A stretch of 64,000 nucleotides of DNA from Mesorhizobium sp. LSJC280B00 (GTDB lineage: Bacteria > Pseudomonadota > Alphaproteobacteria > Rhizobiales > Rhizobiaceae): positions 266,042-330,041 of the forward strand of contig NZ_AYVL01000001.1 of the NCBI RefSeq assembly GCF_000502835.1. The letters run 5' to 3'. Positions 5,444 through 43,435 of the stretch are shown one piece after another. Both the position numbers and the translations under genes were made by a program. Below the pieces are notes generated by a model. It searched no databases. It was not told the origin of the DNA and saw only the letters and a program-made list of their open reading frames with translations. Each line of letters starts with the position of its first letter. Positions within the stretch are counted from its first letter, which is position 1.

Positions 5444-6246
5444 CGATGGACGCGGCGATCGCTTCGACTGGCCAAGGCAAGCAGGACATTCCTGCCGCAG
5501 ATGGCACCACGTCATCGCTCAAGGATCGCATCGCACGCGATCTCGGACAGCGCATCCTCGCCGGCTCCTACGCCCAGCACTCCGTCCTGCCGACGGAAGC
5601 CGAGCTTTGCGTTATCTACGGGGCGAGCCGCACCGCGCTTCGCGATGCTCTTCTGACGCTTTCGGCGAAAGGATTGATCGAGGCGCGCAAGCGGGCCGGG
5701 ACGCGTGTGCGCGTGTCGAGCGAATGGAACAGGCTGGATGCACAGGTTCTGGAATGGATGCGCGATATCGAGCCCGATCTCGATTTCGTCCGCGGATTGA
5801 TCGAGGCGCGGCTGGTCATTGAACCCGCTGCCGCCCAACTTGCGGCCAAGATGGCGACGTCAGGCGATCTCGCAGTCATCGAAGCGGCCTATGAAGCCAT
5901 GCGCATTGCTCCGCAGGACGATCTCGCTGCGTGTCTCGATGCCGACGTCAGGTTTCATACCGCCATCCTTCGTGCCAGCCGCAACCCGGTGTTCGCCAAT
6001 CTCGGCAATATGCTTGCGGCCGCCCTCAGCTTCTCCTTCCGCTTGACCACATCGGCCACCGCTAATTACCAGCAGACGCTGAGCGCGCATGGCGACGTGC
6101 TGGAGGCAATCAGGATGCGGAGGGCCGACGATGCACACGATCAGATGAAGGCGCTCATCGGGATCGCGTCGAACGACCTTCTTGCAGTGGCTCGCAAAGG
6201 CCGCCATCAACAGCCGATCGCCGCTGCCAAGGCCGATACCGTCTGA
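5440..6246 (+). CDS. GntR/FadR-family transcriptional regulator
   Basis: 268-residue DNA-binding regulator. An N-terminal winged helix-turn-helix at about residues 25-90 (LPTEAELCVIYGASRTALRDAL, followed by a GLIEARKRAGTRV wing) is joined to an all-helical FCD ligand domain (RGLIEARLVIEPAAAQLAA... FHTAILRASRNPVF). FCD domains normally bind a metal-dependent organic-acid ligand. The ATG overlaps the permease stop by 4 bp; a second ATG two codons on is possible. As the last regulator-type gene of the sugar operon, it probably controls this cluster in response to a pathway intermediate. Confidence 0.9.
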   Translation: MTMDAAIASTGQGKQDIPAADGTTSSLKDRIARDLGQRILAGSYAQHSVLPTEAELCVIYGASRTALRDALLTLSAKGLIEARKRAGTRVRVSSEWNRLDAQVLEWMRDIEPDLDFVRGLIEARLVIEPAAAQLAAKMATSGDLAVIEAAYEAMRIAPQDDLAACLDADVRFHTAILRASRNPVFANLGNMLAAALSFSFRLTTSATANYQQTLSAHGDVLEAIRMRRADDAHDQMKALIGIASNDLLAVARKGRHQQPIAAAKADTV

Positions 6247-36916: not shown

Positions 36917-38659
36917 TCATAGCCCGATGCCGCGCTTCTTTCCCAGGTTCCAATCCACGCCCCCCGTATCCGAGCACACGACCCCGATGACTTGATTACC
37001 CAATCGCTTTTCGAGCGACGGCGACCAGGGCACGAGCTTGAATTCGAGCCCATTGTCGATCATCGCGAGCCGGCCTGAAGCCAGCGAGAAACGCCGCCGG
37101 TAAATCCCAGCCACATGATCGCCGTTGGCAGCCTTCGTGAATGAGAGGCCCGTCTCGGCGGCGAGGCGGGCACCGAGCGATTCCACCTCATGATCGTGTA
37201 GAGTATCGATCAGATTGCGCACAAGAATGACGCGCTGTCCCTCGCGCCTGGCCAGATCGCGGCTGACAAGGTGGTCGACCCGATCTTGCAGTGCCTGTCT
37301 TACGTCCCTGCCAAAGCCGCCGTCACCGAATTCGGCAGGCTCGCGTGCAACGAGTTGGCGATCGAGCCAAGTCGCGCCGGAAGCATGGACCTGCTGTTCG
37401 ATTGAGAGGTCGGAGCGGACCGCGAGCGTGACCCGGCCACCGCCATTTGCACTCGCATCGCGGCACAACTCCACGACCGAGCCCGGGTCGGAGTCTCCGG
37501 CCGCATCAGGGTCATGGAAGCGAATGTGGTGCGTGCGTCCATCAATGCCATCGACGATGGCATAGGCCGCGCCGCGCCGTTCGTCATCAAGGCCGCGTTC
37601 GAGCAGTCGGCCGATCACGGGCGCATCAATCTTTTCGGCGGCCAGCACATAGTCGGCCGTCCCTTTTTCTAGCCCATGCACAGTGAGGCTGCGGTGCATG
37701 CGCTTGATGGTGTCGCCGCGTTCACCGAGGGCGCGCAAAGTGGCCTCGGCCTCTTCGACCACCATCCACTGGCCGGGACCGATCTCGTTCGCGAGGCCCA
37801 GGCTTTCCAGTTGCCGCAGCCGGCCGACTTTGAGCCCCAGGAACTCGTCGGGCCGGCGATCAGGGTGTGGCGCGAGATCAATGATACCATGACGGTCGGC
37901 GTCACGAACAAGCTGGCGATCGAGCTGCGTCCAGCGCTCAGTGTCGACCTGGTGCTCGATGGCCTGGCGGATGTCGAGGTCCGTGCGGAGCCCAAGCGTC
38001 TGGGTGAGAATGTCGCTCGCCCGATCGCGCATGCCCTGGCGGATGTAGTCGCGCGAGATGACAAGGCTCTCGCCATCGTCGGCAACGCCGCGAACGAGGA
38101 TGTGAACGTGCGGATGTTCGGTGTTCCAGTGATCGACGGCTATCCAGTCGAGCCTCGTGCCGAGGTCGCGCTCCATGTCGACCATCAGGTCACAAGCGAA
38201 GTTCTTGAGGTCGCCGAGCTCCATTGCATCCTCCGGCGAAACGATGAAACGGAAGTGATGCCGATCATCCTTGCAGCGGTCGCAGAAGGCGTCATGATCT
38301 GCATCTTTGGTGTCGGGACCGAACATCCTCGCCTTCTCACCATCACGTGTAACACCTTCGCGGCGAAGATATTTGAGATGGGTGGCGAGTGGCGCAGACC
38401 CTCTGAACTGCCGTACCACACGGGTCTTGACGACGGCGCCGCGTGAGCTGTCAGAGATGAGGCGACTGGCGCGGATGCTCGCTGACCTGCCGCGGCCAAA
38501 CGTTGAAGCTCGCGGGGAGGTGATCCGACCCTCGCGTGTAAGGTGCCCGCCGGCGCGCTGTGTGGCCGCAAGAGCCTGGAAGATGAAGGGTCGTGCGCGC
38601 TGGCCGGCGCGGGAGCGGATGCGACCGGGGCGGACGCGAAAGCTATCGTCACGCTTCAT
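36917..38659 (-). CDS. Relaxase/mobilization nuclease with DUF3363 domain (RlxS-like)
   Basis: 580-residue VirD2-like relaxase that would nick the transfer origin. N-terminus FRVRPGRIRS...QRARPFI, then KYLRREGVTRDGEKARMFG and RHHFRFIVSPEDAMEL; the histidine motif VDHWNTEHPHVHILVRG supplies the metal site. The C-terminus ends with the family tail LVPWSPSLEKRLG...RGIGL, so the protein looks full length. ATG 38659 (MKRDDSFRVRPG) is chosen over an upstream extension. The adjacent upstream gap may contain oriT. Confidence 0.9.
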   Translation of the reverse strand: MKRDDSFRVRPGRIRSRAGQRARPFIFQALAATQRAGGHLTREGRITSPRASTFGRGRSASIRASRLISDSSRGAVVKTRVVRQFRGSAPLATHLKYLRREGVTRDGEKARMFGPDTKDADHDAFCDRCKDDRHHFRFIVSPEDAMELGDLKNFACDLMVDMERDLGTRLDWIAVDHWNTEHPHVHILVRGVADDGESLVISRDYIRQGMRDRASDILTQTLGLRTDLDIRQAIEHQVDTERWTQLDRQLVRDADRHGIIDLAPHPDRRPDEFLGLKVGRLRQLESLGLANEIGPGQWMVVEEAEATLRALGERGDTIKRMHRSLTVHGLEKGTADYVLAAEKIDAPVIGRLLERGLDDERRGAAYAIVDGIDGRTHHIRFHDPDAAGDSDPGSVVELCRDASANGGGRVTLAVRSDLSIEQQVHASGATWLDRQLVAREPAEFGDGGFGRDVRQALQDRVDHLVSRDLARREGQRVILVRNLIDTLHDHEVESLGARLAAETGLSFTKAANGDHVAGIYRRRFSLASGRLAMIDNGLEFKLVPWSPSLEKRLGNQVIGVVCSDTGGVDWNLGKKRGIGL

Positions 38660-38903
38660 GCTAGACGGCCACGAGGTGCGGTTTCCATTGAAAGACTGAA
38701 AAATTGGGAATAGCGCACATCGCTGATTGTGCCAGCACATTGCGAAATGAGACGAAAATCGTAAGGAAAACAATCGGCCGAACCGAGCCGCACCTCGCGG
38801 CCCTTTATCCTGCCAATCTCTCTGTTCTCATCCACAGCCAACCCTTCCGCCGCAATTTCCGCGACGGAACAGGCCGGAATGCAATTGAGGAGGAACGTGG
38901 CGA
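38660..38903. other. Gap upstream of the relaxase; possible oriT region
   Basis: 244 bp, locally A-rich on the plus strand (38740-38775), with a small inverted repeat GCACA (38715-38719) / TGTGC (38728-38732). Position beside the relaxase start is where oriT often lies. No nic consensus was recognised, so this is only a candidate. Confidence 0.3.
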
Positions 38904-40325: not shown

Positions 40326-40886
40326 TCACGGCTCGCTAGCGAGGGGATCGTTGGTGATATCCAGCACCGGAGTGGTGCGCTCCGTGGTCCAGACGGGAAC
40401 CGCACGGCCAACGATCGATGAGAGCGGGAGCGGGCCGAAATAGCGGCTGTCAAAACTGTCGGCTGCACCCGGGTTCATAAGGAAGACGTCGGCCTCGGCA
40501 ATGTCGCGGCAGCCCTGCCAGATGGGCAGGGGTCGACCGCGACTGTCACGCTCGCGCGCATGTCCATACGTCTTGCCGTTGACGATGATCGTTGTGCCTT
40601 GGCGACAGACGGTTGCGCCCCCGAGTGCCAAAATACGCTTCAGGAGCGGCACATTTTTCGGCAGATACCCGCGTCTTGCCATGAAGGCCGCCAATGGCTC
40701 GGGCTGCATGATGACGGCGATATTGGCAATACCGATTTTGTCGGCCGGCTGGACGCGATAGAGCCCGACGGGGATGCTCGCCGATGCGTTCCAGATGGAT
40801 ATCGGCGGATGGCTAATCCATGCCGGCGCCGCGGCGAGCACTGCGCCGCCAACCATGGTGGCGATGATCTTTGTGCGCTTGCTCAT
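40326..40886 (-). CDS. traF: TraF-like S26 signal peptidase (conjugative transfer peptidase)
   Basis: 186-residue membrane-bound serine peptidase of family S26C. A hydrophobic helix at about residues 8-24 is followed by the nucleophile motif SIPVG (Ser37) and the general-base Lys83 in LLKRILALGG; ending with DSFDSRYFGPLPLSSIVGRAVPVW, as in TraF proteins that mature or cyclise pilin. ATG 40886 overlaps the upstream ORF stop (ATGA). Confidence 0.9.
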   Translation of the reverse strand: MSKRTKIIATMVGGAVLAAAPAWISHPPISIWNASASIPVGLYRVQPADKIGIANIAVIMQPEPLAAFMARRGYLPKNVPLLKRILALGGATVCRQGTTIIVNGKTYGHARERDSRGRPLPIWQGCRDIAEADVFLMNPGAADSFDSRYFGPLPLSSIVGRAVPVWTTERTTPVLDITNDPLASEP

Positions 40887-41314
40887 GACTTGATCCCGGG
40901 GCGCAGCAGGCAAGCTTTAAGACGCTTGCCCGTGTATGGACTCGGCTGCTCGCGTGCGGCTATCCGGCTGTGGACGTGCCGCCGTTGACGCGGCGACCTG
41001 AAGGTCAGGGTTTGCTGCTGTTTCGCCGCTACCAGGCGGCGCGGTTGCAATCTCCTGGCTTGCGCGTGGATGTTTTGCGACACAGCCCAGACCAGGATGG
41101 CAGCGTTCCAAATCGTTGCCATGCCGTGCACACTTGCCGCCTCTACGCAGGTCGATTCTTCGCGCGCATGAGAGTGGATCGGTGTCAGGCGGCGGGATTT
41201 CACCAATAAGACGAGCTGCCACGCCACGACGTCCCGCGTGCTGCGTGGAGGGAAGTCGGATGAGGGGACATGAGGCAGCGCAAATTGCTGCTGAACGGTC
41301 TCGCGATACTGCAT
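40883..41314 (-). CDS. Hypothetical protein between the rdfS-like and traF genes
   Basis: 143-residue ORF that starts 17 bp after the RdfS-like gene and overlaps traF by 4 bp (ATGA), the spacing expected of a real operon member. The product is rich in Arg, Gln and His, with one short hydrophobic patch (GMATIWNAAILVWAVSQNI). No family was recognised. The start ATG 41314 has a poor ribosome site, so translation may depend on coupling or begin later. A different frame over the same bases gives a longer but less plausible ORF. Confidence 0.5.
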   Translation of the reverse strand: MQYRETVQQQFALPHVPSSDFPPRSTRDVVAWQLVLLVKSRRLTPIHSHAREESTCVEAASVHGMATIWNAAILVWAVSQNIHAQARRLQPRRLVAAKQQQTLTFRSPRQRRHVHSRIAAREQPSPYTGKRLKACLLRPGIKS

Positions 41315-41331: not shown

Positions 41332-41622
41332 TCAGGAGCTGCGGTCGCGCCTGCCGACATAGGCGGGCGCGCGGGCTGCATGGGGTTTTGCCGGCGGAAC
41401 ATAGGTCGCGTTGGCATCGCTGGTGGAAGTGCGTGCGCCCAACTCTATCCAGGCGTGCAGGTCGTTGATGTCGTAGAGAACGCGCCCGCCGACCTTTCGG
41501 TATTTTGGGCCGGTGCCGTAGGTCCGGTGCTTTTCGAGTGTGCGGGCGCAGAGCCCGACGATGGGTGCTGCCTCCTTCGTGCGCAAATACTTTTGGGGCG
41601 CGTCCGCGGGACCCTTCGACAT
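41332..41622 (-). CDS. rdfS: RdfS-like excisionase (HTH_17/AlpA-type recombination directionality factor)
   Basis: 96-residue protein with a winged HTH of the MerR/AlpA class at about 12-62: KYLRTKEAAPIVGLCARTLEKHRTYGTGPKYRKVGGRVLYDINDLHAWI. The position downstream of the FseA-like gene and upstream of traF matches rdfS of ICEMlSymR7A, whose product turns integrase toward excision. ATG 41622 has GGAGATCGAGCG just upstream. The symbol is given by synteny and domain, not by measured similarity. Confidence 0.8.
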   Translation of the reverse strand: MSKGPADAPQKYLRTKEAAPIVGLCARTLEKHRTYGTGPKYRKVGGRVLYDINDLHAWIELGARTSTSDANATYVPPAKPHAARAPAYVGRRDRSS

Positions 41623-41736
41623 CGCTCGATCTCCATTCGGTTCTGCTGTCGTCCTGGCCTGCCGGGACGCGCGAAGTGGACCATGATCGAAATGAGGAAA
41701 GGCGAGGGAGGGCAAAGATTGGGGGGCGCGTTTTTG

Positions 41737-42532
41737 CTACCCCGAAGAAGGACTTCGGCGGCCGGACTTTTCGCTGCGGTTGTGGGGGTAGAAGAGAAGA
41801 TCGCGATAGCCGCCGGCGACTAAAAAAGCTGCACGGCGTAAGATAGCTCGGACCTTGTGGCGGAGATGATGATCACGCCAATCTCGCGGCACAATCGGCT
41901 CCTGCGAAAACAGCACCTCCGCGAGCTGACGATAGGTTGCACCCGTGCGGTGACCATCATGTGCGCGTAAATTGAGGATATGCCTGATCTTGGTCTGTTG
42001 CGGCAGCGCGCCGTAAGATGGACTGGCTGCCCGGCCGTTCAGTGCGCGCCAGAACCGGCGCGCTGCATCGAGCCGCGTCTCGAATGCAGCGTCGAGCGGC
42101 AGAAGGATAGCGTTGAATTCACCGGCGCGGTCGTCAGCGACGAGATAACTTTTCCCAATTAAGGTAGACCAAATAATGTGAAGGCCTTCGTCCTGCGGCC
42201 AAACGCTGGCTCCGCCAAGGCTGGAAGGTCGAACTGTCTGATGGGATGCAGATACCCGCATGACCCTGAGCACGCGCGGCGAGGCCTGTTCTGTCCAGAT
42301 GATATTGTCAACTTTCGGAAGTCCGGCACCGGCAGTTTTGAAATCGCGCGCCCCAACGGGCGGCGAGATCGGGCTGACCGGCAGGTTCTCCAGAACCAGC
42401 GAATTGCGATGCAAGCTGGCTGCACTCTGCCACGAATTCGTCATTCCGGATCAGATACTCGGCAGCGAACTCCGTAGCCTGGTAGCTGCACATGTGTGAA
42501 TACGCCGCCGGATCGGTCCAATCGCCTTGCAC
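41737..42532 (-). CDS. fseA: FseA-like excision activator, encoded in two overlapping frames (+1 frameshift)
   Basis: Frame 1 starts at GTG 42532 (AGGA 8 nt upstream) and encodes a DUF6499 domain (DWTDPAAYSHM...EYLIRNDEF) that ends at a TGA at 42308. The +1 frame, open from 42444 to 41737, encodes a DUF2285 domain (GATYRQLAEVLFSQEPIVPRDWRDH ... GGYRDLLFYP). In ICEMlSymR7A the same pair, msi172-msi171, is joined by a programmed +1 ribosomal frameshift to make FseA, the activator of rdfS. Reading frame 1 up to Phe64 and then slipping gives WGARF-KTAGAGLPKVDNIIW, the natural junction of the fused family, and a 264-residue protein. Upstream of the rdfS-like gene, as expected. Confidence 0.8.
42340..42343 (-). 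promoter_or_regulatory. Candidate +1 ribosomal frameshift site (TTT-C) in the fseA-like gene
   Basis: On the minus strand the zero frame reads GCG CGA TTT CAA. A tRNA-Phe with anticodon GAA can slip from UUU to UUC in the +1 frame, after which AAA ACT GCC continues the DUF2285 frame. This single slip reconstructs the expected fused protein. Confidence 0.65.
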
Positions 42533-42661
42533 TGTTCCTGTCCTCTCCGCGTACCCGGATGTGAGGCGTCGGCGTCAACATTCCAGGGGGATAAGGAAGT
42601 TGGATAGTTTGAGAGTCGGCAAACCATTATGCCGATTCAGCAAAATGGAGCGCCGGCCGCG

Positions 42662-42940
42662 TCAGTGCGGAGCGCCGCCAGCGAGAAGATATCGGTAGCC
42701 GCTGGTCGTCATCCATCGCGCGCGGGCAAGATGGGTCTCCCAGGACCGGAACGCTCGTTCCGGCTCCTGCTCCGGGTCTATATGCAAGACGATCCTGGCC
42801 ACCTCTCGCCAATCGGCATCTTCCGCTGCCGCGTCAAGCAGGCGAATGTAGGTGAGCAGACGCTCCTCGTCATAGCCGGTCAGGACCGGGGCATCCGGCG
42901 CAATGTCGGCGACATCAGGATCGAGCAGCGGTTTAAGCAT
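42662..42940 (-). CDS. qseM: QseM-like antiactivator (small DUF2285 protein)
   Basis: 92-residue protein: LTGYDEERLLTYIRLLDAAAEDADWREVARIVLHIDPEQEPERA ... HLARARWMTTSGYRYLLAGG. This is a stand-alone DUF2285 domain, the same fold as the C-terminal half of the FseA-like protein. In ICEMlSymR7A, QseM binds FseA and TraR and blocks excision. Here, too, it is divergent from an XRE-type repressor. ATG 42940 has a weak ribosome site. Confidence 0.8.
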   Translation of the reverse strand: MLKPLLDPDVADIAPDAPVLTGYDEERLLTYIRLLDAAAEDADWREVARIVLHIDPEQEPERAFRSWETHLARARWMTTSGYRYLLAGGAPH

Positions 42941-43015
42941 GGTATTTGACCGTTCATATTTCGATCGCGATCTCGAAGGAGCCGTCCTTTAGATCGAGCA
43001 CCAATCATAGCGAAT

Positions 43016-43044
43016 AGGAACGATCATTCCTAGAACGATAGTTC
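43016..43044. promoter_or_regulatory. Tandem palindromic operators between qseM-like and qseC-like genes
   Basis: AGGAACGATCATTCCT (43016-43031) is a 16-bp palindrome with one mismatched pair, and GAACGATAGTTC (43033-43044) is a second palindrome sharing the GAACGAT half-site. They lie 23-51 bp before the XRE gene and 76-104 bp before the qseM-like start. Paired operators of this kind are expected for a QseC-type bistable repressor switch. Confidence 0.65.
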
Positions 43045-43066
43045 CCTTTCTGGTCCCTAATCCGTC

Positions 43067-43282
43067 ATGAATCTCAAGGAGATCATGGCGGCCAACATGC
43101 GTCGTCTGCGCCATGACCAGAACGTGACGCAGGAGGAACTGGCCGCCCGCTCTGGACTGAGCATGCGTTACGTCGGATCGATCGAGCGCGCTCGGGTCTC
43201 GGCCAGCATCAGTGTTCTTGGGAGGATCGCAACTGCGCTGAATGTGGACCCATGCGAGTTGATCAGAAAATCGGCACCGTGA
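43067..43282 (+). CDS. qseC: QseC-like XRE-family repressor
   Basis: 71-residue protein that is almost entirely an XRE/Cro HTH domain (ANMRRLRHDQNVTQEELAARSGLSMRYVGSIERARVSASISVLGRIATALNV). It is the only plus-strand gene in this part of the element and is divergent from the qseM-like gene, as qseC is in ICEMlSymR7A. It probably binds the palindromes at 43016-43044 and controls both its own and qseM transcription. Confidence 0.82.
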   Translation: MNLKEIMAANMRRLRHDQNVTQEELAARSGLSMRYVGSIERARVSASISVLGRIATALNVDPCELIRKSAP

Positions 43283-43435
43283 GTTGACGCGGGAAGCACC
43301 GCGAATTTTCGATTATCGGCGAGGCAACATGCAGGAATGAAGTCTCCAGCCGGGAACACGACAGGTAGTCGCCCCAAAGTCCGACGGAGCTCGTTGCGCA
43401 GCGACTGCGCTCATCTTGTCGTGAAAAGGAGGACG

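Follow-up and report, generated by a model that had tools for sequence, protein, structure and literature searches.

On the minus strand of a Mesorhizobium contig, a reading frame for a DUF6499 domain overlaps a second one for a DUF2285 domain. Are these two genes, the remains of one gene disrupted by mutation, or a single gene whose halves are joined by the ribosome? We addressed this question in a window of 64,000 nt of Mesorhizobium sp. LSJC280B00 (NZ_AYVL01000001.1, positions 266,042-330,041 of the forward strand), whose relevant features are collected in Table 1. The two frames very probably constitute one gene, fseA, in which an FseA-type +1 programmed frameshift makes the activator protein. 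This reading, already proposed in the first-pass annotation, is based on the domains, on how the two frames relate and how constant that relation is, on biased codon choice at the slip site, on selection on both halves and on gene order; homology, gene order, selection and slip-site conservation concur in supporting it.

Table 1. Features of the putative fseA locus and its neighbours, in window coordinates
Feature	Coordinates	Strand	Details or basis
fseA 5' part, DUF6499	42308..42532	-	GTG start, 74 aa; PF20109 E 1.3e-12
fseA zero-frame stop TGA	42310-42308	-	sequence
DUF2285 frame as listed ORF	42444-41737	-	235 aa, ATG at 42444
fseA 3' part, +1 frame, DUF2285	41737..42339	-	PF10074 E 2.6e-29; +1 reading
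fseA 3' part stop TAG	41739-41737	-	sequence
+1 slip site TTT-C	42340..42343	-	TTT = 42343-42341, C = 42340
CGA Arg codon preceding slip codon; possible stimulator	42344..42346	-	codon conservation
TGG GGC (Trp-Gly), G-rich Shine-Dalgarno-like stretch	42350..42355	-	codon bias in family
FseA-box-like inverted hexamers AGCAAA-N16-TTTGCC (predicted)	41711..41738	-	layout likened to published box
rdfS-like HTH_17 gene	41332..41622	-	96 aa from ATG 41622; PF12728 E 5.5e-07
traF-like signal peptidase S26 gene, start codon uncertain	40326..40913	-	PF10502 E 1.4e-26
Relaxase-like gene (DUF3363, MobA/VirD2 nuclease), start uncertain	36917..38773	-	PF11843 E 3.2e-86, PF03432 E 5.8e-06
qseM-like lone DUF2285 gene, upstream of fseA	42662..42940	-	PF10074 E 1.4e-06
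qseC-like HTH_3 gene, divergent	43067..43282	+	PF01381 E 7.5e-13

The junction and its conservation

The first-pass annotation had delimited both frames exactly, as the ORF list and the sequence confirm. At the junction the minus strand reads CGT TGG GGC GCG CGA TTT C AAA ACT GCC GGT, and a +1 step at TTT-C joins the frames as WGARF-KTAGAG, as anticipated, in a single open frame of 264 residues. The first part matches the Pfam profile PF20109 (Trans_reg_dom, that is, DUF6499) at 48.3 bits against a cut-off of 23.8; the match spans positions 1-59 of the 60 in the profile, and its end is the junction itself. The second part matches PF10074 (RovC_DNA-bd, that is, DUF2285) at 102.4 bits (cut-off 26.4).

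Most ribosomes would thus read DUF6499 and terminate at the zero-frame TGA, and a minority would slip by +1 when tRNA-Phe (anticodon GAA), paired with UUU, re-pairs with UUC. The slip would yield an activator of 264 residues with both domains, DUF6499 and DUF2285. Judged by its homologue FseA of ICEMlSymR7A, this protein would bind a box upstream of rdfS and turn on excision and transfer genes, and the adjacent lone DUF2285 protein (QseM-like) would restrain it.

Is the split peculiar to this strain? The DUF2285 half finds a match, at an E value of 1e-8 or lower, in 119/146 genomes sampled from the window's genus; 14 loci came from named genomes. Among these relatives, BLAST matches to both halves gave 26 distinct loci, the window counted in, and all 26, distant ones among them, need the same +1 step at the same codon; the split is therefore no local mutation. 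Homologues with a continuous frame, which the first-pass annotation had named as a sign of a simple mutation, were sought and are absent from these 26 rows. CGA-TTT-C is invariant in the close clade, in 21/21 distinct members with the window included. The junction is identical on plasmid pMc1192 of M. ciceri CC1192, yet the record of that plasmid annotates two separate genes.

Both halves are under purifying selection and hence are retained. Against the 18 relatives with usable dS, dN/dS ranges over 0.14-0.45 in the DUF6499 part and over 0.15-0.35 in the DUF2285 part; saturation of at least one half affected five distant relatives. Counting against the preferred reading are the values of 0.43-0.76 obtained against two 96% relatives, which rest on few changes only.

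To widen the comparison we used PF20109 profile searches, which matched 131/146 genomes of the genus, 39/199 of the order, 17/337 of the class and 42/398 of the phylum, in overlapping samples. The junction sample, which takes in part of the matches listed in these searches, comprised 252 DUF6499 matches in 251 sequences (250 loci plus the window copy), from which 19 duplicates and 10 matches short of the profile end were excluded before counting. Among the resulting 223 distinct junctions, 198 need a +1 step, 24 lie in a single frame and one is without DUF2285 within 600 bases; none of the 223 needs the opposite shift. Since the loci come mostly from the window's genus, 198/223 is not a family-wide rate; the part of PMC10359603 available to us gives about 61% of 4709 homologues as requiring a +1 frameshift. 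Together with the constancy of CGA-TTT-C in the clade, these counts place the +1 relation beyond chance. With the junction without DUF2285 omitted, the other 222 were clustered at 70% identity into 100 shifting and 18 continuous representatives. Two further DUF6499 matches occur in the window's genome: one (C29:46469-46678, L106; L002 in the junction set) needs a +1 step and has TTT-C, and the other (C77:4615-4752, L128) covers profile positions 1-46 only.

Codons and decoding at the slip site

The slip codon is TTT in 98/100 of the +1 representatives, whereas elsewhere in these genes TTT accounts for 153 of 611 Phe codons (25%). A C follows it in 92 and a T in 8. CGA precedes the slip codon in 61/100, and in 61 of the 67 cases with an Arg codon there, against a background of 213/2151 (10%); with 39 other preceding codons, CGA is a strong preference and no requirement. 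The Gly codon of the WG pair is GGG in 69/99 (background 167/1185). In contrast, the slip signature is absent from the 18 continuous representatives (TTT in 1/18, CGA in 0/5 Arg codons, GGG in 4/18). Fisher p-values for these biases are descriptive only, because homologues share ancestry. L171 and L121, the two representatives in which the assigned codon is not TTT, carry TTT in an adjacent codon, apparently through an offset of the alignment; a non-representative locus, L097, has TGT at the assigned position.

Within the close clade (n=21), the Arg codon of RWG varies (CGT 14, CGC 5, CGA 1, and Lys AAA 1) while the CGA before TTT is fixed, and the Gly codon is GGC in 14, GGG in 4 and GGT in 3. 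The window itself has TGGGGC by the shift site, with GGC rather than the family-favoured GGG, and this counts against the preferred reading; in R7A the stretch is UGGGGG and, in the portion of PMC10359603 consulted, is located at WGL, where the window has WGA.

Conservation of TTTC and of the zero-frame stop had been suggested as a check. The TTTC is conserved, in 21/21 clade members, but the position of the stop is not, falling 2 to 211 codons past the slip codon in the 100 representatives. Upstream of the junction their +1 frame stays open over 2 to 212 codons, and the cases of shortest overlap confine the shift to the neighbourhood of CGA-TTT-C.

Downstream RNA structure was considered as a stimulator and rejected: five folds, two of the window and three of relatives, had no excess stability (z -0.23 to 1.73), a result that counts against the preferred reading. 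An Rfam search of 41500-43400 returned nothing at gathering score.

A tRNA family search of the window's genome gave 46 places, and ARAGORN names 44 of the 46 fetched loci. Among the 44 named loci, GAA is the only tRNA-Phe, tRNA-Arg is present as ACG, CCG, CCT and TCT, and no Arg TCG was found; the set is incomplete, since two matches are unnamed and no Ile GAT gene is among them, so that the genome probably, though not certainly, lacks one for Arg TCG. If so, by general decoding rules, CGA would fall to the inosine form of Arg ACG, which pairs with it weakly, and UUU would be read through a G-U wobble that a slip to UUC improves to G-C. Apparently CGA has no reader other than this inosine-type tRNA. 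Separately, ARAGORN called a tRNA-Ile (gat) at window 6155-6238 (minus strand), where the tRNA family search has no match on the contig; the call is probably spurious.

These elements could belong to a composite signal, GGGG(G)-N3-CGA-UUU-C, with a rare Arg codon next to the wobble-paired UUU. The gap between the G-rich stretch, when it has its usual GGGGG form, and CGA is 3 bases (4 in the window); the shift may therefore accompany the passage of tRNA-Phe from the A site into the P site. In addition, DUF6499 made without a shift may serve as a decoy for QseM, in which case the frameshift would set activator and antiactivator jointly. We offer this model, signal, A-to-P-site shift and decoy together, tentatively, and consider it somewhat doubtful. 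A G-rich Shine-Dalgarno-like stretch also lies upstream of the +1 frameshift of prfB (release factor 2). The resemblance is in the +1 step after such a stretch; unlike prfB, the site here has no stop codon in the A site, the slip codon is UUU-C, the proteins are unrelated, and the distance from the end of the stretch to the slip codon is 6 bases (7 in the window) as against 3 in prfB.

Could the two frames be something other than a frameshifted gene? A mutation or assembly error in a formerly continuous gene, for which the 24 single-frame junctions of the wider sample might speak, is extremely unlikely and was rejected: the same +1 relation recurs in even distant rows, both halves are under purifying selection, and the strong codon bias at the junction is confined to split genes. 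We give practically no credence to slippage of the RNA polymerase, instead of the ribosome, as the step restoring the frame. The window does have an AAAA run directly after TTTC, but this run is missing from most BLAST rows and wider junctions, where TTTC stays, and TTT is a short run for polymerase slippage.

That DUF6499 and DUF2285 are two separate proteins working as a pair, the latter made from its own start or by coupled re-initiation, is highly unlikely. There is an ATG in the DUF2285 frame, at 42444, the pMc1192 record annotates two genes, and this is the view taken for Azorhizobium caulinodans, whose split homologues are described, in the section of PMC9601964 at hand, as having their own starts and stops and no programmed frameshift; that view counts against the universality of the mechanism and against the preferred reading here. 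Two proteins would account neither for the retention of TTT-C nor for a shift that is +1 in every case. In some representatives only 2 codons of open +1 frame precede the junction, which leaves little room for an upstream start, and in the window a protein begun at the ATG would start with out-of-frame DUF6499 sequence.

Neighbouring genes and the predicted FseA box

The genes around fseA, at the level of their domains, fit a known ICE module, with rdfS, traF, relaxase, qseM and qseC types (Table 1). Downstream also lie DUF736 and transglycosylase-like genes (Pfam), and farther upstream a Toprim protein, a large helicase, ArdC and a ParB-like protein slightly under its Pfam cut-off. We compared 14 loci from named genomes (12 Mesorhizobium, 1 Aminobacter and 1 Chelativorans): a rdfS-like gene follows fseA in all 14, a qseM-like match lies upstream in 11, one of them partial, and a qseC-like match was found in 7, two at 34-35% identity; the contig of L040 ends early upstream. 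The gap between the rdfS-like and traF-like genes (window 41332-40913; relatives L033-L046) ranges from ~70 to 1,700 bases and in pMc1192 contains a RepA-like gene and a DUF2840 gene, as if this variable stretch were a cargo slot.

Between fseA and rdfS, overlapping the fseA stop, sits a 28-base layout of inverted hexamers resembling the FseA box. The strict hexamer pattern at fixed spacing is present in 14/21 clade members and missing in 7/21; it arose in 0/4200 shuffles, which are no independent test of the box because the pattern was derived from these same sequences. The predicted box is more distant from rdfS than the one reported for R7A, by ~27 bases, and this counts against the preferred reading. 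Five more distant relatives (L022, L023, L025, L026 and L032) have another inverted repeat, GTGCCGC...GCGGCAC, between the two genes, their differing repeats suggesting that activator and box may change together.

Comparison with FseA of ICEMlSymR7A and with RovC

The first-pass annotation had cited msi172-msi171 of ICEMlSymR7A as a +1 frameshift precedent, and the relevant passages of PMC10359603, PMC5882170 and PMC5009743 bear this out. Like FseA (Msi172-Msi171) of that element of Mesorhizobium japonicum, as described there, the window gene has split DUF6499 and DUF2285 parts united by a +1 step and a WG-x-R-F-like junction following a G-rich stretch, and its partners are of the qseM, qseC, rdfS, traF and rlxS type (PMC10359603, PMC5882170 and PMC8627217, in part). 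Unlike in R7A, fseA here immediately precedes the rdfS-like gene, and the 40 window proteins scanned include no traI/traR-like gene, nor any of the trb, integrase or LuxI/LuxR-type families.

Helix 2 of DUF6499 reads AAEYLIRN in the window and AWEFLRRN in the published protein (5/8 identical), a difference that counts against the preferred reading; going by the excerpt of PMC10359603 consulted, Glu33 and Arg37 of R7A are kept and Trp32 and Arg36 are not. At this helix (window 42466-42443, minus strand) the clade has AAEYLxRN and more distant rows AWEYLRR; Trp is replaced by Ala in 14/14 aligned clade rows, and the first Arg by Ile, Val, Ala or Leu. The same excerpt places the two residues in mutual contact in R7A FseA, so that the change may have been a joint one.

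The C-terminal part matches PF10074, named for the DNA-binding domain of Yersinia RovC (PDB 6xz5); a search of solved structures with the joined protein gave just a non-significant match to RovC (6xz5, E 0.33). RovC activates a type VI secretion system, unlike the FseA-type role (PMC10359603, in part).

As far as these sources go, fseA of the window belongs, in a divergent clade, to a family whose +1 programmed frameshift is already published (PMC10359603), and novelty may be confined to the preference for CGA and its tRNA rationale; a literature search joining msi172 with CGA returned an organelle tRNA synthetase paper and the msi172 passage of the review PMC5009743. A slip of the ribosome by one base at a conserved spot is a known way to keep excision and transfer rare. 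With this gene, a divergent Mesorhizobium clade would join a widespread and often mis-annotated group of split gene-transfer regulators, in which the comparison of 100 shifting with 18 continuous homologues defines the shift signal concretely, including its strong preference for CGA.
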